Assembly (NCBI RefSeq): GCF_000299415.1
Contig: NZ_AMPG01000002.1
Coordinates: 186,001-250,000, forward strand
Direction of reading: 5' to 3'
DNA: 64,000 bases
From: Candidatus Microthrix parvicella Bio17-1
Lineage (GTDB): Bacteria; Actinomycetota; Acidimicrobiia; Acidimicrobiales; Microtrichaceae
The position numbers and the translations under genes are program-made. The notes under the pieces are model-generated. The model saw only the letters and a program-made list of their open reading frames with translations, made no database searches and was not told where the DNA came from. This document shows positions 5,239 through 17,074 of the stretch, in pieces (within the stretch, counting starts at the first letter, position 1; the number at the start of each line of letters is the position of its first letter).

Positions 5239-6414
5239 TTAGTTGCTGCTTGCAACCAGATCCGCAATTGCTCGCGCCGCGTCTGCCTGCATGCCGGGGA
5301 TCACGTGGGCGTATTGCTTGAGCGTGAACGCTGGGCTTTCGTGGCCGAGGCGTTCGCTGATCACCTTCGGTGGAACACCAGCTCGCAACGCAATCGTGGC
5401 GTGGGTGTGGCGGAGGCAATGGAGGTGAATCCGAGGAAGGTCGCTCTTGTCGACAAGCCGTTCGAACGCTTGCGAAAGGGTCTGCGGGTGGATCGGCTCA
5501 CCGTTCTCCTTGCAGAAGAGGAGGTCTCCATCCCGGTAGCCGTCTCCCCATTCCTCCTGTTCGGCGAGTTGGCGCTGGCGGTGAAGCCGGATCTGCTCGA
5601 CTGTGGCCGGATCGAGGTCGATGACCCTGGCCAGGTGGTTCTTTGGTGTCGACACGATGAGTTTGTAAGCGACCGAGACGAGCGCTTGCCGAACATGGAT
5701 TCGGCTGCTGTTGAGATCCAGGTCGGCCCAACGGAGGCCAAGAACCTCGCCTCGACGCATCCCAGTCATCGCAGAGACGTTCCAAGCGGCCTCGAGCCGA
5801 TGCCTGGCAACGAGGTCGAGGAACGAGCGCAGTTGCTCTGGAGCCCAGAACAGGAGCTCCTTTGGAGCAGCCGATCGAGGTCGGGGCGGCTTGGCTCGCC
5901 CAGCAGCATTTGCTGCAATCAGGCCACCGTCGACCGCGTCAGCAAGCGCCTTGTGCACCATGGTGTGGATGTAGTGCACCGTCTTGGGGCTGAGCCCGCC
6001 GGGCCCGTTGCGCCGGCCGTGCTCAAGAAGGTCGACGTACAGCGTGTTGAGCTGGCCGGGTCCGATGTCGACCAGGCTGCGTCCACCCAGGGCGGGGAGC
6101 ACGTGAAGGTGGATGTTGCGTTGGTACGAGTCGAAGGTGCTCGGCTTGACCTGCGTTCTGACGGTCGGGAGCCACTTGTCCTCGACCCACTCACGGAGGG
6201 TCAGCTTCGTGGGTTCGGTGTAGGTGCCTGCGTGGAGGTCACCGACGATCTTCGTGCGGGCGACCTCGGCTTCTTTGCGGGTCCGGTAGCCGCCGTGCCA
6301 TTTCTGGCGGCGTTTAGCGTTGGCGTCTCGTCCAAGTTCGACGACGACGTACCAGTTGACGGTCTCTTTACCCGCCTTGGTCTTGTGGGTGCGCTTGCGG
6401 ATGTGTCCCTGCAT
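5239..6414 (-). CDS. int: Tyrosine integrase of island 1
   Basis: This 391-residue protein has the layout of tRNA-targeting phage/ICE integrases: an N-terminal arm-binding domain rich in basic residues (1-65), a SAM-like core-binding domain (about 70-165) and a catalytic domain. Catalytic residues are present: Arg220 (TGMRRGE), His332-x-x-Arg335 (HCLRH), His358 (LGHES) and Tyr368. It lies upstream of, and on the same strand as, the three-gene operon. Once the IS21 insertion is removed, its start would lie only about 280 bp from the att copy at 13005. It is therefore the likely integrase of the island bounded by att copies 1 and 2, and appears intact. Confidence 0.92.
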   Translation of the reverse strand: MQGHIRKRTHKTKAGKETVNWYVVVELGRDANAKRRQKWHGGYRTRKEAEVARTKIVGDLHAGTYTEPTKLTLREWVEDKWLPTVRTQVKPSTFDSYQRNIHLHVLPALGGRSLVDIGPGQLNTLYVDLLEHGRRNGPGGLSPKTVHYIHTMVHKALADAVDGGLIAANAAGRAKPPRPRSAAPKELLFWAPEQLRSFLDLVARHRLEAAWNVSAMTGMRRGEVLGLRWADLDLNSSRIHVRQALVSVAYKLIVSTPKNHLARVIDLDPATVEQIRLHRQRQLAEQEEWGDGYRDGDLLFCKENGEPIHPQTLSQAFERLVDKSDLPRIHLHCLRHTHATIALRAGVPPKVISERLGHESPAFTLKQYAHVIPGMQADAARAIADLVASSN

Positions 6415-6448
6415 GACGCCCGCTCACGTGCTCGGCGCTGAGACGCCG

Positions 6449-6533
6449 TGTCAACGGACATGAGATGCTCCCCGTAGGTGGCCGGTAGGGGTTCCCCGGG
6501 GGCGGTCATGGGTTGTCCCCGGGTGTGGCCACG
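6449..6533 (+). repeat. Left terminal repeat region of the IS21 element
   Basis: Shares six blocks in the same order with the complement of 12673-12757, including GTAGGTGGCC and TTGTCCCCGGG. These are the expected multiple IstA binding sites at an IS21 end. Confidence 0.75.
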
Positions 6534-7014
6534 GGTTTGGCCCGTTGGTGGCCGGTATCCGTTTGTTGGTGTTCCTCCTGGGCTTGGATCGATGGCGCTG
6601 ACCTATCGATGCCGAGCACCAGGAGGAACACGCTCATGTTGTCAAAGGAGAAGATCATGGAGGTCCTTGAGGCCTATGACCTGACTGGTTCATACCGGTC
6701 AGCTGGGCAGTTGTGTGGTGTGGATCACCACACGGTGCGCCGTTATGTGAAAGCGAGAGAGGCCGGGTTGGACGTGACGGTTCCGGCGGTTCAGGCCCGG
6801 GAATCGGTGGCGGATCCGTTCATCGATCGTGTTGAGGGGTGGGTGGACCGCTCGAAGGGCAAGATCCGGGGCAATGTGGTTCATGACAAGTTGGTGGCGT
6901 TGGGTTACGAGGGTTCGGAGCGGACAACCCGGCGGGTTGTGAAGCGTGTGAAGGCGGCCTGGCGCCACGAAAACCATCGGTCGTATCGGCCGTGGCTCCC
7001 GGAGCCGGGGTTGT

Positions 7015-7044
7015 GGTTCCTATGTGGAGTTCCACATAGGAACC
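7015..7044. repeat. Perfect 30-bp palindrome at the left end of the RIT element
   Basis: Fourteen bases (GGTTCCTATGTGGA) are followed by GT and then their exact complement. The outer six bases belong to istA or the core. The inner 18 bp (7021-7038) have no copy at the right end. TATGTGG/CCACATA also recurs inside the inverted repeats, and probably marks recombinase binding. Confidence 0.8.
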
Positions 7045-7130
7045 AATATGTGGCCCCCGCGGTTATGTGGAGCGGGCCGTCTGGGTTGCTGGCGGGTGGC
7101 GGTGAACGGCTTGAGGGAGTCCACATAGTC
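7039..7130 (+). repeat. Left 92-bp inverted repeat of the RIT element
   Basis: Identical to the complement of 10331-10422. It contains three TATGTGG-type motifs in both orientations (near 7048, 7064 and 7121), presumably binding sites for the three recombinases. Confidence 0.9.
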
Positions 7131-7199
7131 GCGGTCTGACTGCGGTGGCTCGGCGGGTCGGGGGAGTCTTTCTCGGTTGGTTCCCGAGAGGAGACGAAG

Positions 7200-8411
7200 A
7201 TGGCCAAGAGACGATCGATTCCGGTGAGCGGTCCGCTTGCCGAACACGAGAACGGATATCGGGCCTGGCTGGTTGAGCTGGGCTACAAGCCAAAGTCGAT
7301 GGGGGTGCTGGTTGGGTTGGTGGGGCGACTCAGCATCTGGATGGACCACCGCGGTCTTGATGTCGGGGATCTGTGCGGGGCGGTCGTCGAGGAGTTCCTC
7401 ACCGATCTCAGGGCCGGTGGCGGTTGGTTCCAGCCGACGGTGGCGACCCTTGGGTCGTTCCTCGACTATTTGCGGGACGCCGGTGCTGTCGGGTTCGAGG
7501 TGCCACCGGTTCCGGTGACGGCGTCCGAGGAGACCATCAAGGCGTTCGGCCACTTCCTGGAGTTCGAACGCGGTCTGACCCCGGGCGCGATCCGCACCTA
7601 CGTGTGGGTGTCGACCGCGTTCTTGTCTTGGCTCCAGGACCGGGGTCGCTGTGAGCTGGCCGGGTTGACCGCCGGCGATGTTGTCGCGTTTGCCACGGAG
7701 GTGTGTCCGACCTACAGCGTTGGGCGGGCGAAGTTGACCATGACCGGTCTGCGGTCGTTCTTGGGGTTCGCTCACGTCGCGGGTTTGGTGCCGGTGGGTT
7801 TGGCCGGTGCGGTGCCGTCTGCGGCGGGATTGACCGGCACCGCGCTGCCCAAGGGCCTGTCACCGGAGGAGGTGCAACGTTTGTTGGGCAGTTGCGATCG
7901 CCGTCGAAGCAGGGGACGACGGGACCACGCGATTTTGGTGTTGTTGGTCCGGCTCGGTCTGCGAGCCGGAGAGGTCGCCGCTTTGACCCTTGATGATCTT
8001 GGGTGGCGGGCCGGTGAGATCCTCATCGGGGGCAAGGGCGGCCATGTGGAACGTCTGCCGTTACCCTCCGATGTCGGCGACGCGGTGGCCGGCTACCTGA
8101 AGCGGGGTCGCCCACAGAGCGCCCAGCGGGCTGTGTTTCTGAGGGCACACGCTCCCATCCGCGGGCTCCAACCGAGCGGGGTCGCCCAGGTGGTCCGTGA
8201 CGCGTGCATCCGCGCCGGTATCGAACCGGTCGGTCCGCACCGGCTCCGCCACACCGCAGCAACCGAGTTGCTGCGGGCCGGTGCGAGCTTGCCCGAGGTT
8301 GCCCAGGTTCTGCGCCACCACAGCATTTCGACCACTGCGATCTACGCCAAGGTCGACCATTTGGCTCTGCGGGAACTGGCCCTGCCCTGGCCCTCGAAGG
8401 TGGTGGCGTGA
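7200..8411 (+). CDS. RIT tyrosine recombinase A
   Basis: This 403-aa protein is the first of the trio. An N-terminal SAM-like core-binding domain (about 10-210) precedes a catalytic domain with Arg (LGLRAGEV), the beta-hairpin Lys region (GGKGGHVERLPL), His-x-x-Arg (HRLRH), a second His (LRHHS, where LGH is usual) and a Tyr in TTAIYAKVD. A purine-rich GAGAGGAGA precedes the ATG. Its stop overlaps the start of the second gene by one base. RIT recombinases act together, but the division of labour among the three is not established. Confidence 0.88.
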   Translation: MAKRRSIPVSGPLAEHENGYRAWLVELGYKPKSMGVLVGLVGRLSIWMDHRGLDVGDLCGAVVEEFLTDLRAGGGWFQPTVATLGSFLDYLRDAGAVGFEVPPVPVTASEETIKAFGHFLEFERGLTPGAIRTYVWVSTAFLSWLQDRGRCELAGLTAGDVVAFATEVCPTYSVGRAKLTMTGLRSFLGFAHVAGLVPVGLAGAVPSAAGLTGTALPKGLSPEEVQRLLGSCDRRRSRGRRDHAILVLLVRLGLRAGEVAALTLDDLGWRAGEILIGGKGGHVERLPLPSDVGDAVAGYLKRGRPQSAQRAVFLRAHAPIRGLQPSGVAQVVRDACIRAGIEPVGPHRLRHTAATELLRAGASLPEVAQVLRHHSISTTAIYAKVDHLALRELALPWPSKVVA

Positions 8412-9346
8412 TGGCCGACTTCGCCGCCATGGCCGACGACTACCTGCGAACCCGCCGGGCACTGGGCTACAAGCTCGTTGAGCAGGGCCGACTGCTCGGA
8501 CAGTTCGTCGAGTTCCTCGCTGTCGAACAAGCCGAGCGGGTGACCATCGACCTCGCGGTGAGATGGGCACGCCTGCCCGTGGATACCAACCCGGTCTGGT
8601 GGAACGAACGGCTCTGCATCGTCCGGGGTTTCACCCGCTACCTGAGCGCCTTTGACCCCGCCACCGAGGTGCCCCCAACCGGACTCATGCCGCCTGGCCG
8701 ACGTCGGATCACCCCGTATCTGTTCACCGAAGCGGACCTCGACGCCCTCCTCGAAGCGGCCGGGCAGCTCACCGCCGGTCTGCGGGCGGACACTTACCAG
8801 ACCCTCATCGGCCTGTTATCGGTCTCCGGGATGCGCGTCGGGGAGACCGCCGGGCTGGACCGGGCTGACATCGACTGGGACCACGCTCTGCTCACCATTC
8901 GTAACACCAAGTTCGGCAAGTCCCGCCAGATCCCTCTGCACCCAACCACCATGACCGCACTCGAGGGCTACGCCCGACGACGAGATGTTCTGCTGGCCGC
9001 GAGGGCGAAGCCAACAGGGCCGAGCTTCTTCGTGCCCAGCACCGGCACCCGTCTGATCCCGGGCCGGGTCGGCGCCAACATCGGGTCCCTCATCCGTGAG
9101 GTCGGTCTGTGGAATACGGGCACCAGCCGGCCTCCGAGGGCACACGATCTCCGCCACAGCTTCGCTGTGCGGACCCTGCTCGGCTGGTATCGCGCCGGGC
9201 TCGATGTGAACCGCCGGTTGCCGCTGCTGTCCACCTACCTCGGTCACGTCGAGCCCGCCAACACCTACTGGTATCTCCATGCCGCCCCCGAACTGATGGC
9301 CCTCGCAGCCCAACGGCGCGACCAAAACCAGGAGACCCGGCCATGA
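8411..9346 (+). CDS. RIT tyrosine recombinase B
   Basis: The middle recombinase has 311 residues. The start is ATG at 8411, sharing one base with the stop of gene A; longer frames reaching into gene A are unlikely. The core-binding domain (5-110) is followed by the catalytic domain with Arg in VSGMRVGE, a Lys hairpin (TKFGKSRQIPL), HDLRH, LGHVEPANTYWY and a tyrosine in that last segment. It ends four bases after the start of gene C (ATGA overlap), so the trio is one translation unit. Confidence 0.87.
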   Translation: MADFAAMADDYLRTRRALGYKLVEQGRLLGQFVEFLAVEQAERVTIDLAVRWARLPVDTNPVWWNERLCIVRGFTRYLSAFDPATEVPPTGLMPPGRRRITPYLFTEADLDALLEAAGQLTAGLRADTYQTLIGLLSVSGMRVGETAGLDRADIDWDHALLTIRNTKFGKSRQIPLHPTTMTALEGYARRRDVLLAARAKPTGPSFFVPSTGTRLIPGRVGANIGSLIREVGLWNTGTSRPPRAHDLRHSFAVRTLLGWYRAGLDVNRRLPLLSTYLGHVEPANTYWYLHAAPELMALAAQRRDQNQETRP

Positions 9347-10332
9347 CCCGGCTCGCCCCGCTGCTGGAGGAGTTCTTCACCGACCGCCTCATCAACCAAC
9401 GACATGTGAGCCCGAACACGATCGCCGCCTACCGCGACACGTTCCGGCTGCTGGTGGTCTTCACCCACGACACGCTCGGCACCCAACCCTGCGATCTGGA
9501 CCTCGCCGACCTCGACGCCACCGTCATCGGCGGGTTCCTCACCCACCTCGAGACCGAACGCGGAGTGGGCATCCGGACCCGCAACGCCCGGCTGACCGCC
9601 ATCCGGTCGCTGTTCCAGTTCGCCTCATACCGCCACCCCGAACACGGGGCGACCATCAGCCGTGTGCTGTCCATCCCACCCAAACGGACCGAGCGGGCCA
9701 TCGTCACGTTCCTCACCAAAGACGAGATCCAGGCCCTCCTCGACGCCCCCGACCCCAGCACCCGGCTCGGCCGACGCGACCGCGCCGTCCTCGCCCTGGA
9801 CATCCAAACAGGGCTACGTGTCTCCGAACTCGTCGGACTCACCCGCGGTGACATCGAACTCGGCACCGGAGCCCACGTTCGCTGCCACGGCAAAGGACGC
9901 AAAGACCGCATCACCCCGCTCAACGAACCCACCCGACAACTCATCGGGCACTGGCTCGACGAACACCCCGGCACACCGTCGGACCCACTCTTCACCGGCC
10001 CGGCCGGCAAAGCGCTCACCCGTGACGCCATCCGTCGGGTCCTTGACCGTCACATCACCACCGCCACCACCAACTGCCCGTCGCTGGCAGCCAAGAACAT
10101 CACCCCACACACGCTTCGTCACACCTGCGCCATGGGACTCCTCCAAGCCGGCGTCGACCTTGCCGTCATCGCCCTCTGGCTCGGCCACGAAGACATACGC
10201 ACCACCCAGATCTACCTCCACGCCGACCTCCGCCTGAAAGAACAAGCTCTCGACCGCACCACCCCACCGAACACACCCGACGGCCGCTACCAGCCCCCGG
10301 ACCCGCTCCTCGCGTTCCTCGAATCCCTGTGA
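9343..10332 (+). CDS. RIT tyrosine recombinase C
   Basis: This 329-residue XerC/D-like recombinase starts with ATG at 9343 inside the ATGA overlap with gene B. The core-binding domain spans about 1-110. The catalytic residues are Arg (TGLRVSELV), Lys (GKGRKDRITPL), His-x-x-Arg (HTLRH), His (LGHED) and Tyr (TTQIYLHAD). Its stop at 10330-10332 overlaps the first bases of the right inverted repeat. All catalytic positions are filled, so the RIT element may still be able to move. Confidence 0.88.
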   Translation: MTRLAPLLEEFFTDRLINQRHVSPNTIAAYRDTFRLLVVFTHDTLGTQPCDLDLADLDATVIGGFLTHLETERGVGIRTRNARLTAIRSLFQFASYRHPEHGATISRVLSIPPKRTERAIVTFLTKDEIQALLDAPDPSTRLGRRDRAVLALDIQTGLRVSELVGLTRGDIELGTGAHVRCHGKGRKDRITPLNEPTRQLIGHWLDEHPGTPSDPLFTGPAGKALTRDAIRRVLDRHITTATTNCPSLAAKNITPHTLRHTCAMGLLQAGVDLAVIALWLGHEDIRTTQIYLHADLRLKEQALDRTTPPNTPDGRYQPPDPLLAFLESL

Positions 10333-10422
10333 CTATGTGGACTCCCTCAAGCCGTTCACCGCCACCCGCCAGCAACCCAGACGGCCCGCTCCACATAACC
10401 GCGGGGGCCACATATTGGTTCC
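10331..10422 (-). repeat. Right 92-bp inverted repeat of the RIT element
   Basis: Exact complement of 7039-7130. Its outer end is GGTTCC, where istA coding sequence resumes at 10423. Confidence 0.9.
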
Positions 10423-11578
10423 AGTGGGATTACGGCGATGGGCCGGTCGTGTGCGGTGAGAAGTCGGTCCTGTTTTGTGGCTGGTTGGCGTGGTGTCGGT
10501 TCCGGGTGGTGATCCCGCTTCGTGACAAGCGTTTACCGACGATCATCGGGGCGTTGGATCGGGCGTTCCGGCTGTTGGGTGGCGCCCCGACCTATGCGTT
10601 GACTGACAACGAAAAGACGGTGACCGAACGCCATATCGCGGCGTTGCCTGTTCGGAACCCGAAGATCGTCTCCGCCGCGGTGTATTACGGGGTGACAATC
10701 GCGACGTGTGTCCCGTTCGACCCCGAATCGAAGGGCGGCTCGGAGGCGACCGTCAAGATCGCGAAGGCCGACCTGGTCCCCTCTGAGGCGAACCTCCGCG
10801 ACGAATACGACTCGTGGGAAGCCCTCGAGTCGGCGTGTGTGGCGTTCATGGACAAGGTCAACAACCGTGTCCACACGGTCACCCGCCGCCGTCCGGTCGA
10901 CATGCTCGCTGAGGAACAAGCCAAGTTGCATCGGATCCCTCAGGAGCCTTACACGGTCGCGTTTGGTGAATCGAGGAGCGTGTCGTGGTCCTCGACGATC
11001 CAGTTCCGTGGGGCCCGCTATTCGGTCCCCCACACCCTCTGCGACAGCCGGGTGTGGGTGCGCCTGTCTGGCGACGTGCTGGTGATCGTCCACGTTGGCG
11101 ACGACGGGCCAACCGAGGTCGCACGACACCTGGTCGTTCACGCCGGGCAGGCGTCGATCGTTGATGCTCACTATCCGGAACGCAAAGACCCGACCGACCG
11201 GCAACCGAAGGCGACGAACCGGCACGAGGAAGCGTTCCTCGCCATCGGCGAAGGCGCCAAAACATGGCTGGTTGAGGCCGCCACTGTCGGGGCACGCCAG
11301 ATCGAACCGACGATGGCCCAAGCAGTCGAGTTGTGCGCAGCAACGGACCGCACACGCGTTGACGAGGCCCTCGGTCTCGCCGGCCTCGCAGGCCGGTTCG
11401 GGATCGACGACCTCAACTCGATCCTGACCACCACCAGAAGAGAACCCCGGCGGGCCAACCCCGCCCACTCGCTTCAGAACGGCACCAGAGCCTGGTCACA
11501 ACTCGGTCAACCCCAAAGCGACCACCGCCCCAACAACCCCAACCCCAGCCTGAACGGCAACGGGAACGGGGGCCAGCC

Positions 11579-11866
11579 ATGAGGGGACCATCATCGACAT
11601 CGTCCACACCCGACGGAGATCAGGTTGTTCTCGAGGCGGCCGATGCCGCCGAGCTCGGCGGGCTCCTCGCCGGCCTCGCCGGCTGGATCGCGGATGGACA
11701 TGCGGGCTTCCAGAACATGGGCTTCCACGTCAGCATGACTCTCAACCTCGACTACACCGGAGGGCTCGGCGACCTCGACGCTGTCTTCAGAGTCCTCGAC
11801 AACTGGGTCGAGCGGCTGAACCCGCCGGCCGTGACGGTCAGAACAACACACAGGAGATGGTCATGA
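11579..11866 (+). CDS. 95-aa accessory protein between istA and istB
   Basis: An ATG overlaps the istA stop (ATGA), and the stop at 11864-11866 lies just inside istB. The small gene is therefore translationally coupled on both sides. The product has an acidic, alanine/leucine-rich N-terminal half and a central 'FHVSMTLNLDYTG' strand-like segment. No family is recognised. Classical IS21 elements carry only istA and istB, so an extra gene is unusual; coupling on both sides argues that it is translated. Function unknown. Confidence 0.6.
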   Translation: MRGPSSTSSTPDGDQVVLEAADAAELGGLLAGLAGWIADGHAGFQNMGFHVSMTLNLDYTGGLGDLDAVFRVLDNWVERLNPPAVTVRTTHRRWS

Positions 11867-12639
11867 ACGGTCCGATCCCCCAAGCGGTCACCGACGAGAT
11901 CACCGCCCTGTGCCGCCGTCTCCGGCTGCGTTACATCCGAGAGCAATCTCCCGACGTGCTCCTCACCGCGAAAGCCCAACGCTGGGACCCAGCCGAAACA
12001 CTCCGGGTCCTCCTCCAAGCAGAAGCCGAGGGACGGAACCGGTCAACCATCGAGCACCACCGCAAAGCCGCCCGGTTCCCAGCAGGGAAAACGTTCGACG
12101 CCTGGCAGGCCGAACGGTCCTCGGTTCCGGTCCCAACCCAGAACGCCCTCCAAAGCCTGGAATGGGTTGACCGTCACGAGAACCTCGTGATCTGCGGGCC
12201 GTCAGGCACCGGCAAGTCCCACCTCTGCGAAGCACTCGGACAATCTGCTGTCGACCACGGCCGCAACGTCCGCTGGTTCAACATCGAAGACCTCGGCGCG
12301 CTCGTCCGCTCACACCGCATCGATGACACCATCACCAAAGCCCTCAAACCGGTCCTCCGGGCCGATCTGATCATTGTTGATGACATCGGCCTGTTGCCGG
12401 TCTCCAGCGACGCAGCCGAAGGCCTCTACAGGCTCATCGACGCCGCCTACGAGAACACCAGCGTCGCTGTCAGCTCAAACCTTCACCCCTCAGGCTTCGA
12501 CCAGCTCATGGACGAAACGATCGCCAGCCCCCTCGTTGACCGGCTCCTCCACCACGCCCACGTCATCGTCACCCAAGGCGAATCGATCCGACTCGAAGAC
12601 GCACTCAACGGAAAGGGGGTGGAGCCCCTGACCAAATGA
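11857..12639 (+). CDS. istB: IS21 helper ATPase IstB
   Basis: IstB is the AAA+ partner of IstA, which loads on DNA and activates strand transfer. The 260-aa protein has an N-terminal helical adaptor region (1-85), Walker A in GPSGTGKSHL, Walker B in LIIVDDIGLLP and a conserved sensor segment (SVAVSSNLHP), as in the IstB/DnaC-like family. ATG at 11857 follows a GGAG; a second ATG two codons on is also possible. It is intact and full length. Confidence 0.93.
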   Translation: MVMNGPIPQAVTDEITALCRRLRLRYIREQSPDVLLTAKAQRWDPAETLRVLLQAEAEGRNRSTIEHHRKAARFPAGKTFDAWQAERSSVPVPTQNALQSLEWVDRHENLVICGPSGTGKSHLCEALGQSAVDHGRNVRWFNIEDLGALVRSHRIDDTITKALKPVLRADLIIVDDIGLLPVSSDAAEGLYRLIDAAYENTSVAVSSNLHPSGFDQLMDETIASPLVDRLLHHAHVIVTQGESIRLEDALNGKGVEPLTK

Positions 12640-12672
12640 CCGGGGAAACACCCGGCCACCCTTGGGGAATCC

Positions 12673-12757
12673 CCATGGCCGCCCCCGGGGACAACACCCG
12701 ACCGCCCACGGGGAAACCACCTGGCCACCTACAGGGAAACCCTCATGGCCATTGACA
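12673..12757 (-). repeat. Right terminal repeat region of the IS21 element
   Basis: Complement of the left end with interspersed mismatches; ends in TTGACA at 12757. Short GGGGAAAC-type blocks recur every 25-30 bp (near 12643, 12711 and 12734), as expected for repeated transposase sites. Confidence 0.75.
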
Positions 12758-13004
12758 CAAAGTCGAGACGCTCTCCCCCGTCGGTGCGGGCGGGTAACGC
12801 CAGGCCAACCCCACGCTTCGGGGTAGCCCCTCTGGAGGAGACAGGCTTGAAGGGCCGCAAAGAATCGGATCGACACTTTCGCTCGCGTTGCGACTGCGCT
12901 CGATCGGCACTTGATGCTGTCGTTCCCCCGTGAGATCCCGGATCAGATGACCGACGCCGCACGGGTTGCCTGAAAGCCTGGGACGCACCCTTGTCCCTGT
13001 AGAT

Positions 13005-14351: not shown

Positions 14352-14687
14352 TCATGGGGATTCGTAGCGCGGGCACAGTTCTACGGCGTTGCCGGTGACA
14401 GCTAGCAACTGCTCTGCTGCCTGGACGACGACGAGCACCTCCGGTGTCGCTATCCGGTAGAACACTTGACGTCCTTCGGGGCGGTCCTCGACCAATCCGC
14501 ACTCCTTGAGGCATGCCAGGTGTCCGGAGATGTTGCCTTGTGATCCATCGAGGCGTCTTACGAGGTCGACGACGCGCAGCTCACCGGGGACTAGTTCGAG
14601 CAGGATGGCAAGACGCGTGCGGTCTGCGAAACCTCGGAACAGTTTCGTGGCGAGCTCAATCTCGGTGGCCTTCTCGGCGGTGGTCAT
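14352..14687 (-). CDS. CmtR-like ArsR/SmtB-family metal-sensing repressor
   Basis: The 111-aa winged-helix protein has the CmtR cysteine pattern: Cys59 and Cys63 in the recognition helix (HLACLKECGLV) and Cys105 near the C-terminus (AVELCPRY). In mycobacterial CmtR these three residues bind Cd(II) or Pb(II), which releases the operator. The start is ATG at 14687, facing a strong dyad at 14701-14736. It is followed on the same strand by the ccdA fusion 28 bp later, probably one operon. By analogy it represses its own operon and perhaps the divergent ATPase operon. Confidence 0.88.
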   Translation of the reverse strand: MTTAEKATEIELATKLFRGFADRTRLAILLELVPGELRVVDLVRRLDGSQGNISGHLACLKECGLVEDRPEGRQVFYRIATPEVLVVVQAAEQLLAVTGNAVELCPRYESP

Positions 14688-15157: not shown

Positions 15158-17074
15158 ATGAACAGCGCTACCGCCGATCTCGCCGATGTCGATGTGGACG
15201 ACGGGGTGGAGCATCCCTGGGAGAGCCGCGAGGTGCGCTGGTCGGCGCTCGCTGGGCTGCTGCTCGCCGTGGGGTTCCTCGCCGGTCGCGTTGAGGTCCC
15301 GACCGGTGTTGTCACTGGCATCTATGCGGCGTCGACGGTAGCGGGGCTGCGGTTCTTCGCGCTCGAAGCGATCGAAGAGCTGTGGCGCGAACGGCGGATC
15401 GGCATCGAGCTGTTGATGACGGTGGGCACCCTTGCTGCGGGCGGCCTGGGTGAGTGGGGCGAGGCCGCGACCCTCGCGTTCTTGTATTCGATCTCCGAAG
15501 CGCTCGAGGAGTTCACTGAGGACCGCACTCGCAATGCCATTCGAGCGCTGATGGACCTCGCTCCCAAGCAGGTCACCCGCGTCCGTGACGGTGTTCAGGA
15601 AGAGATCGACGTTGGGGACCTCGCAATCGGTGACCAGTTCCTGGTGCGGCCTGGTGAAGGCGTCGGGACCGACGGCACGATCGTCGACGGTTACAGCGCT
15701 CTGAACGAGGCGGCGATCACGGGTGAGTCGGTGCCGGTCGAGAAGCAGGTCGGCGACAAGGTGTTCGCGGGAACGTTGAACACCACCGGCGCGGTCGTGG
15801 TGGAAGCGACCGCGACGGCCGAGGACAACACGCTGGCCAAGATCGTGCACCTTGTCAGCGAGGCCCAAGAGCAAAAGGGCCGTGGTGAGCAGTTCATGAG
15901 CCGGTTCGCGCGCATCTACTCCCCGGCGGTGCTGCTCGTCGGTGTGCTTGTAGCGTTCGGTGGCGGCATGCTGACCGGTGACTGGTCCGAGTGGGTGGGT
16001 CGGGCGGCGACGGTGATCGTGGCGGCTGCGCCGTGCGCGCTGGTGATCTCCATTCCGATCAGTTATGTCGCCGCCATCGGCAACGCCAGCCGCAAAGGCA
16101 TACTCATCAAGGGAGGCATCTACCTGGAGGAACTGGCCCGGCTCACCGCACTGGCCATGGACAAGACCGGCACCATCACTCAAGGTGAGCCTCGCGTGGT
16201 CGACGTGGTCCCGGCTGACGGTCACGACGAACGGTCTGTGCTCACTGCCGCCGCAGTGGTCGAACAGCGCTCCGAGCATCCGCTCGCTAGCGCCGTCATG
16301 GTCCGCAGCGCCGAGCTCGACTTGTCCATCCCTTCCAGCGAAACGTTCGAAACGCTTGTTGGCGCCGGTGCCCGAGCCTCCAGCAACGGCCGTCTCTACC
16401 TCGTCGGCTCCCCGGCCCTGATGGACGATCGTGGGCTCGCACTCGACGGGCTCCGAGGCCAGATCGAGAACCTCGAACGAGCCGGACGGACCGCGATCGT
16501 CGCAGCGGTCGATGATCGAGTCGTCGGTGTGGTCGGGATCGCTGATGTGGTGCGCCCTCAAGCCCGTGACGCAATCAGTGAACTGCGCCGTAACGGTGTC
16601 GACCACATCGTCATGCTGACCGGAGACAACGCCCGCACCGGTGAAGCCATCGCCTCGGAGGTCGGGATCGACGATGTGCGAGCCCACCTCAAGCCCGAGG
16701 ACAAGTCCCGGCTTGTCGCCGAGCTCGCTGCTCATGGTCATGTCGGCATGGTCGGCGACGGGGTCAACGACGCACCCGCGCTCGCCGCTGCGTCGGTCGG
16801 TATCGCCATGGGTACCGCCGGCAGCGACGTCGCCCTCGAAACCGCCGACGTTGCGCTCATGGCCGACGACCTGTCCAAGCTCACCGAAGCGGTCCGGATC
16901 GGGCGACGCACCCGCCGCATAGTCGCCCAGAACATCGCGCTAGGCCTCGTGATCCCGGCAATCCTCGTCCCGGGTGCCCTGATCGGCGTCTTCACCTTGC
17001 CCATTGCTGTGCTGGCCCACGAGCTCTCCGAGCTGGCCGTGATCGCCAACGGCCTCCGACTGGCCCGCAGGTGA
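15158..17074 (+). CDS. P1B-type heavy-metal-exporting ATPase
   Basis: The 638-aa integral membrane pump has an actuator motif TGES (188-191), phosphorylation site DKTGT (Asp335), SEHP in the nucleotide-binding domain and GDGVNDAP near the end. The transmembrane metal site reads APC (291-293) where Cd/Zn/Pb/Cu pumps usually have CPC. The N-terminus has no heavy-metal-associated domain, only an acidic, His-poor leader. Two N-terminal and four later hydrophobic hairpins fit P1B topology. Its stop overlaps lspA (ATGA). The ArsR context suggests Cd, Pb or Zn export, but the altered site leaves the metal open. Confidence 0.9.
   Translation: MNSATADLADVDVDDGVEHPWESREVRWSALAGLLLAVGFLAGRVEVPTGVVTGIYAASTVAGLRFFALEAIEELWRERRIGIELLMTVGTLAAGGLGEWGEAATLAFLYSISEALEEFTEDRTRNAIRALMDLAPKQVTRVRDGVQEEIDVGDLAIGDQFLVRPGEGVGTDGTIVDGYSALNEAAITGESVPVEKQVGDKVFAGTLNTTGAVVVEATATAEDNTLAKIVHLVSEAQEQKGRGEQFMSRFARIYSPAVLLVGVLVAFGGGMLTGDWSEWVGRAATVIVAAAPCALVISIPISYVAAIGNASRKGILIKGGIYLEELARLTALAMDKTGTITQGEPRVVDVVPADGHDERSVLTAAAVVEQRSEHPLASAVMVRSAELDLSIPSSETFETLVGAGARASSNGRLYLVGSPALMDDRGLALDGLRGQIENLERAGRTAIVAAVDDRVVGVVGIADVVRPQARDAISELRRNGVDHIVMLTGDNARTGEAIASEVGIDDVRAHLKPEDKSRLVAELAAHGHVGMVGDGVNDAPALAAASVGIAMGTAGSDVALETADVALMADDLSKLTEAVRIGRRTRRIVAQNIALGLVIPAILVPGALIGVFTLPIAVLAHELSELAVIANGLRLARR

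Follow-up and report, generated by a model that had tools for sequence, protein, structure and literature searches.

Our study concerns a recombinase in trio (RIT) element of Candidatus Microthrix parvicella Bio17-1 that lies within istA, the transposase gene of an IS21-family element. The window, which is the whole stretch of 64,000 nucleotides analysed here (contig NZ_AMPG01000002.1, positions 186,001 to 250,000), contains three forward-strand genes for tyrosine recombinases, ritA (7200 to 8411, 403 aa), ritB (8411 to 9346, 311 aa) and ritC (9343 to 10332, 329 aa), with overlaps of 1 bp between ritA and ritB and 4 bp between ritB and ritC. As the initial annotation had reported, these genes lie between perfect 92-bp inverted repeats (7039 to 7130 and 10331 to 10422, no strand assigned). 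All three products match Xer-type tyrosine recombinases, and the catalytic R, HxxR and Y residues are present in each when they are aligned by eye to XerD/XerA chains. Of the two core-binding domains expected of RitA in a RIT, there is one weak SAM-like match, at residues 113-190 and below the cut-off, and the preceding ~110 residues are unmatched. Between the repeats, ritA, ritB and ritC are the only interpretable open reading frames of at least 80 aa, although no profile search was aimed at TnpC, Srap or Tfp genes. RITs were first described in Cupriavidus metallidurans CH34, and the papers of Van Houdt 2009 and Ricker 2013 are reportedly those that define them. Set against the size expected of a RIT, about 3.5 kb with terminal inverted repeats, this element has 3402 bp and its 92-bp repeats; described RITs likewise consist of overlapping A, B and C tyrosine recombinase genes and measure about 3.5 kb (PMC3414803, PMC2864759), with added domains in RitA and RitC (PMC8138268). 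The window element is an ordinary RIT, and its value lies in a testable mechanism and a target rule.

The N-terminal half of istA occupies positions 6636 to 7020 and the C-terminal half, which starts at a QWDYG motif, positions 10423 to 11582, both on the forward strand. Deleting 3402 bp restores the reading frame, as had been noted, and gives a 514-aa IstA that reads ...PGLWF^QWDYG... at the junction; eight uninterrupted IstA relatives with 47-62% identity span the insertion site. The claim that the insertion point is known to the base does not hold, since TGGTTCC is found at both 7014-7020 and 10416-10422 and allows eight equal placements of the cut, of which 7021-10422 is one. These copies include the 6-bp core TGGTTC on the forward strand, at the left junction (7014 to 7019) and at the right (10416 to 10421). 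Within the left repeat we place arms a (7047-7053) and b (7064-7070, TATGTGG) and an inverted arm c (7121-7127), and within the right repeat their counterparts a' (10408-10414), b' (10391-10397) and c' (10334-10340). Missed in the initial annotation is an 18-bp palindrome, TATGTGG-AGTT-CCACATA (7021 to 7038, 8 of 9 pairs, no strand assigned), which stands outside the left repeat and has no equivalent outside the right. This one-sided palindrome carries mechanistic information.

Relatives of the element were drawn from the window genome, other genomes, GTDB contigs, one viral contig and plasmids, the last as 14 regions picked by eye among 40 listed of 598 records with a ritB match; two of these 14, L127 and L128 (our locus numbers, used throughout), were examined separately. 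Loci were screened by a trio finder and then by a repeat-arm finder, which took a spacing of 17 bp between arms a and b as its search criterion, and the duplicates L064, L017 and L018 were removed from the count. The repeat-arm search left 12 trio rows without a repeat pair and skipped further rows in which the contig end was too near. Both repeats were placed in 39 elements, 34 of which have adequate flanks on both sides. A second set of 20 loci was fetched after the geometry had been fixed; 17 of them have the trio and seven both ends.

The ends of these elements share a common anatomy, in which arms a and b read TATGCCG, TATGTGG or similar, 17 bp apart, and a palindrome of 7-4-7 layout is located on one side only, 8 bp beyond arm a. 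A one-sided palindrome of at least 7 of 9 pairs is present in 26 of the 34 elements (15 on the left, 11 on the right), against a background rate of 0.28% of 210,777 positions. Of the remaining eight, two have a score of 5 on one side (L049 and L082), one has 6/9 on both sides (L094), and five have no palindrome (L047, L058, L083, L084 and L092). Three elements with one usable flank each (L048, L061 and L069) score 8 on that flank. In the second set five of the seven elements carry a one-sided palindrome of 8 or 9 pairs, the exceptions being L143, which scores 8 on both sides and has short flanks, and L135, which scores 5 and has doubtful arms.

For each of the 26 elements with a one-sided palindrome we compared three octamers, of which F lies just outside the palindrome, O just outside the other repeat, and I between palindrome and repeat. 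F agrees with O at positions 1-8 in 6, 16, 23, 21, 21, 24, 26 and 3 elements, while I equals F at position 1 and O at position 8 in 26/26. For the same comparison of F and O, the counts over six second-set rows are 1, 5, 6, 5, 5, 6, 6 and 1. The agreement has sharp edges at spacer positions 1 and 8, and therefore positions 2-7 are taken as the exchanged core, over which the agreement of F with O averages 5.04 of 6 positions when both come from one element and 1.84 of 6 when they come from different ones. In the window element all three 6-mers are identical. Across the 26 elements there are 25 mismatched core positions, of which 18 fall in the palindrome half and none at position 7; from this skew it looks as if pairing is tested first beside arm a.

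Comparison with uninterrupted plasmid targets locates the core in the empty sites, which have exactly 8 nt between the flanks in all nine elements compared: L086 (in IS21), L096 and L091 (IS66), L088 (IS701), L097 (ISL3), L089 (an AAA ATPase gene beside a DDE integrase) and L059, L052 and L050 (radC). The flanks are matched almost exactly by the empty sites of L086, L088, L089 and L096 and less closely by those of the other five, and the similar sites hold a single copy of the 6-bp core. The unequal pairs reveal a polarity. In L089 the empty site equals O (CTGACC) and F equals I (CTCACC), and in L059 the empty site again equals O (CGCGCT) and F equals I (TGCGCT). The same direction is seen in L091 (empty ACAAGT, O ACAGGT, F GGCTGT) and L097 (empty ATCGAT, O ATCGAC, F CTCGAC), so that the target 6-mer is on the palindrome-free side in 4/4 clear unequal cases. 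L050 and L052 point the same way weakly, their empty sites being too dissimilar, and in L086, L088 and L096 both copies equal the target and give no decision on the side.

Equal 6-mers on both sides of 13 of the 26 elements are what a conventional insertion would leave if it duplicated 6 bp of its target with an enzyme supplied in trans, the palindrome being unrelated. In the other 13 elements the two 6-mers differ, one copy is the element's own in the four clear cases, and the elements encode tyrosine recombinases with nothing else seen between the repeats; we regard this account as very improbable, and a 6-bp target duplication was rejected on the unequal pairs. A DDE insertion sequence was likewise set aside, given that tyrosine recombinases are the only enzymes encoded and the 6-mers are unequal in half of the relatives. 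It is scarcely credible that the end structure is an assembly artefact of the long inverted repeats: several related RIT copies do lie at contig ends in the window genome, but the same structure occurs, with matching empty sites, in complete plasmids of Rhodococcus, Streptomyces, Bradyrhizobium, Sinorhizobium and Mesorhizobium. The same IS21::RIT composite is present on plasmids of two Rhodococcus strains (L086 and L127), with 99.3% identity across 5980 bp. Only three differences separate the two copies over the first 2350 bp of the RIT, all within the internal 6-mer (AGTTTC / GGCCTC), and therefore this 6-mer seems to have been exchanged as a unit. Part of the divergence between L086 and L127 is this exchanged 6-mer.

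Six target sites were hit repeatedly, by two or three elements each and 16 in total, and in 16/16 the palindrome adjoins the same half of the target gene (L049 with 5/9 pairs). At four of the six, in IS21, RadC, IS256 and IS110, ritABC runs both ways. We consider it probable that RITs are transposons that move by site-specific recombination through a circle with a symmetric joint and two equivalent crossover sites. In such a circle the two inverted repeats would meet around the 18-bp palindrome, and each crossover site would consist of a palindrome arm, an 8-bp spacer with the 6-bp core, and repeat arm a. Use of either site would leave the palindrome on one side of the inserted element, with the element's own 6-mer staying on that side and the target 6-mer ending on the other. 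Insertion at a given target could then occur with ritABC pointing either way, the palindrome keeping to one side of the target. The compared sequences support the ends, the 6-bp core, its polarity, the two orientations and the empty sites; the circle with its symmetric joint, the binding of the arms by RitA, RitB and RitC and the order of strand exchange belong to the predicted part of the model.

The elements with no palindrome or two have flanks of a particular kind. On either side of L094, which has a partial palindrome at each end, is the C-terminal half of a recombinase gene, the two genes being different; L083 and L058, which lack a palindrome, each lie between the N-terminal halves of two distinct transposase genes. 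L047, L084 and L092 each have one recognisable target half, on a side that lacks a palindrome, the other flank having no assigned gene. Such zero- and two-palindrome products fit a symmetric joint with two crossover sites.

Several points weigh against the circle model. The zero- and two-palindrome elements could also have arisen by homologous recombination of one RIT with another, and 8 of the 34 elements are without a clear one-sided palindrome. The geometry was initially read by eye from members of the first set, and the elements are partly non-independent: the three RadC RITs are near-copies, L079 and L080 are one element in one genome, and L087 and L091 are close. The target arms have a weak sequence preference, with T as the base preceding the spacer in 19/26, and no likeness of the target flanks to the repeat arms is visible. 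Circular forms, which the initial annotation proposed to look for, did not turn up; no circle joint of the exact TATGCCG-type pattern is present in 397 genomes or viral contigs, nor does one of either arm type occur in any of 156 loci (assemblies would rarely hold one).

A different intermediate is envisaged in strand-biased copy-out, in which one strand is exchanged and copied, the palindromic end perhaps forming a hairpin, and the donor stays filled. This route shares the ends and the 6-mer rule with the circle model, and the fixed placement of the target 6-mer in the four clear cases resembles that described for SEs in PMC10214605, where strand-biased copy-out is put forward for SEs and discussed as an option for Tn554. 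Whether the donor is emptied does not show in any of the sequences, and a symmetric double-stranded joint is the simpler explanation of insertion in both orientations; we hold copy-out to be rather unlikely.

The symmetric joint also bears on what has been described of RITs and related elements. In the parts of PMC3414803 drawn on here, RITs are described as having variable ends and an inverted repeat that a palindrome overlaps, and the end repeats as a misfit to the usual core and arm sites; here they are resolved into two core sites, a reading that offers a reason for both the variable ends and the odd palindrome. A description of this two-core model was not found in the titles and abstract openings searched, although parts of it may already be in print. 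According to passages of PMC10214605, a paper of 2023, the target specificity, empty site and movement of RITs had not been formally tested and no laboratory transposition was known. In elements of the Tn554/SE type, as in the relatives of our RIT, a 6-bp piece of the earlier site is placed on a fixed side (PMC10214605). Their genes are different (IntA, Tfp, IntB and Srap in SEs; TnpA, TnpB and TnpC in Tn554), and the sections of that paper considered here mention neither a symmetric joint nor insertion in both orientations. GInts, the subject of PMC5385486, resemble RITs in having several recombinase genes per element (PMC10214605), but have four conserved genes and large cargo; they are set apart here by description, not by sequence. 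What the comparison adds is a name for the RIT crossover, its polarity and the joint to be expected.

RIT insertions were already known in radC and in transposase genes (PMC3414803, PMC2864759), one of them in an IS66 gene (PMC2864759). In our sample one flank or both can be read in 36 elements, namely the 34 together with L048 and L069, and 28 of the 36 are inserted in genes of mobile elements, 23 of these targets being assigned by Pfam at E < 0.001 and five by eye (L049, L080, L072, L094 and L069); among the 23, the matches for L048 and L079 fall short of the family cut-off, and L089, an AAA ATPase, was judged by its neighbour gene. The remaining eight targets are radC in three elements (Pfam for L050 and the same reading for L052 and L059, with uninterrupted radC annotated), a DUF222-HNH gene (L060), a GDPD gene (L070) and sites for which no gene was identified (L077, L082 and L085). 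That all targets are mobile genes is ruled out by these eight. Pfam assigns the targets of two second-set elements, a reverse transcriptase for L133 (inserted at DIRSFFD) and an AAA_30 helicase for L137 (at VVDEA); the target of L136 is an IS3 orfA (by eye), and L132 and L140 have no Pfam match. Many of the sites are motifs that we take to be catalytic or nearly so, among them IstA Q-x-D, IS701 VDD, ISL3 GIDD and rve DNG, and also tyrosine recombinase LRH, IstB VDE and a reverse transcriptase motif. These observations suggest that such elements use a 6-base crossover to insert, often at a conserved motif and for the most part in genes that belong to other mobile elements. L092, L093 and L094 are RITs at the LRH motif of recombinase genes that resemble ritB (by eye), and some RITs may thus attack other RITs.

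In a tree of 38 joined Rit sequences, from which the second set was left out, the four RITs at the IstA site form one clade with support 100, in different IS21s; the three RadC RITs and the three RITs at the IS66 TCK site are also clades with support 100 each, while the recombinase-targeting RITs require three changes. The target labels need 22 changes on this tree, compared with a minimum of 20 and a shuffled mean of 30.6, and a value as low was reached in 0/200 shuffles; near-copies add to this association. Target specificity thus appears to follow descent. The initial annotation was right to place a RIT within the IS21 transposase gene, but its wording, "caught inside", implies chance, yet four RITs of the same clade share this IstA codon; its view that a clean host-gene insertion would be informative was borne out for the istA site. 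The IstA of L122, an uninterrupted relative of the L086 host, is 24.9% identical to the IstA in the window, and therefore the shared feature is the motif and not the IS. The window clade is specialised on istA codons at Q(W/V)D(Y/W)G, and it differs from the RITs described earlier in sitting at a single istA codon of IS21 elements.

Group I introns, group II introns and inteins likewise favour the most conserved codons of their host genes, but they are spliced out and spare the host gene, whereas a RIT breaks it. RITs mostly break other mobile elements, at codons that are hard to change, which suggests why they may be tolerated. We advance tentatively, as a possibility, that RITs are hyperparasites of other mobile elements, that each of their clades homes on DNA for a conserved, often catalytic motif of a single host family, and that their 6-bp end registers record the sites they have left. 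If so, part of the travel history of a RIT would be readable from a single sequence.

The host of the window RIT is an IS21-family element on the forward strand (6449 to 12757), with ends TGTCAA...TTGACA assigned by eye and imperfect inverted repeats at 6448-6501 and 12705-12758. Its istB gene (11857 to 12639, forward strand) scores above the cut-off for IS21_help_AAA. An empty IS21 copy had been proposed as a check. This genome gave one match and no second or empty copy, in an assembly of 13 contigs that is 95% complete; for the sister insertion L086 there is an empty IS21 counterpart, L122, that is 98-99% identical. Beside the IS21 element an open reading frame of phage-type integrase appearance (5239-6414, by eye) indicates that several mobile elements are clustered. 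Farther along the window are an open reading frame resembling a P-type metal-transport ATPase (15158-17074, by eye) and, nearby, a small regulator-like one (14352-14687).

The same genome holds a second, diverged RIT on contig C5 (L009, 4862-8240), within a phage-type integrase gene at an LRH motif. Copies of a third RIT lie at contig ends, at the start of L009 (C5), the end of L013 (C10) and the start of L014 (C8), which suggests that several copies broke the assembly. The flanks of L013 and L014 resemble one shared target gene.

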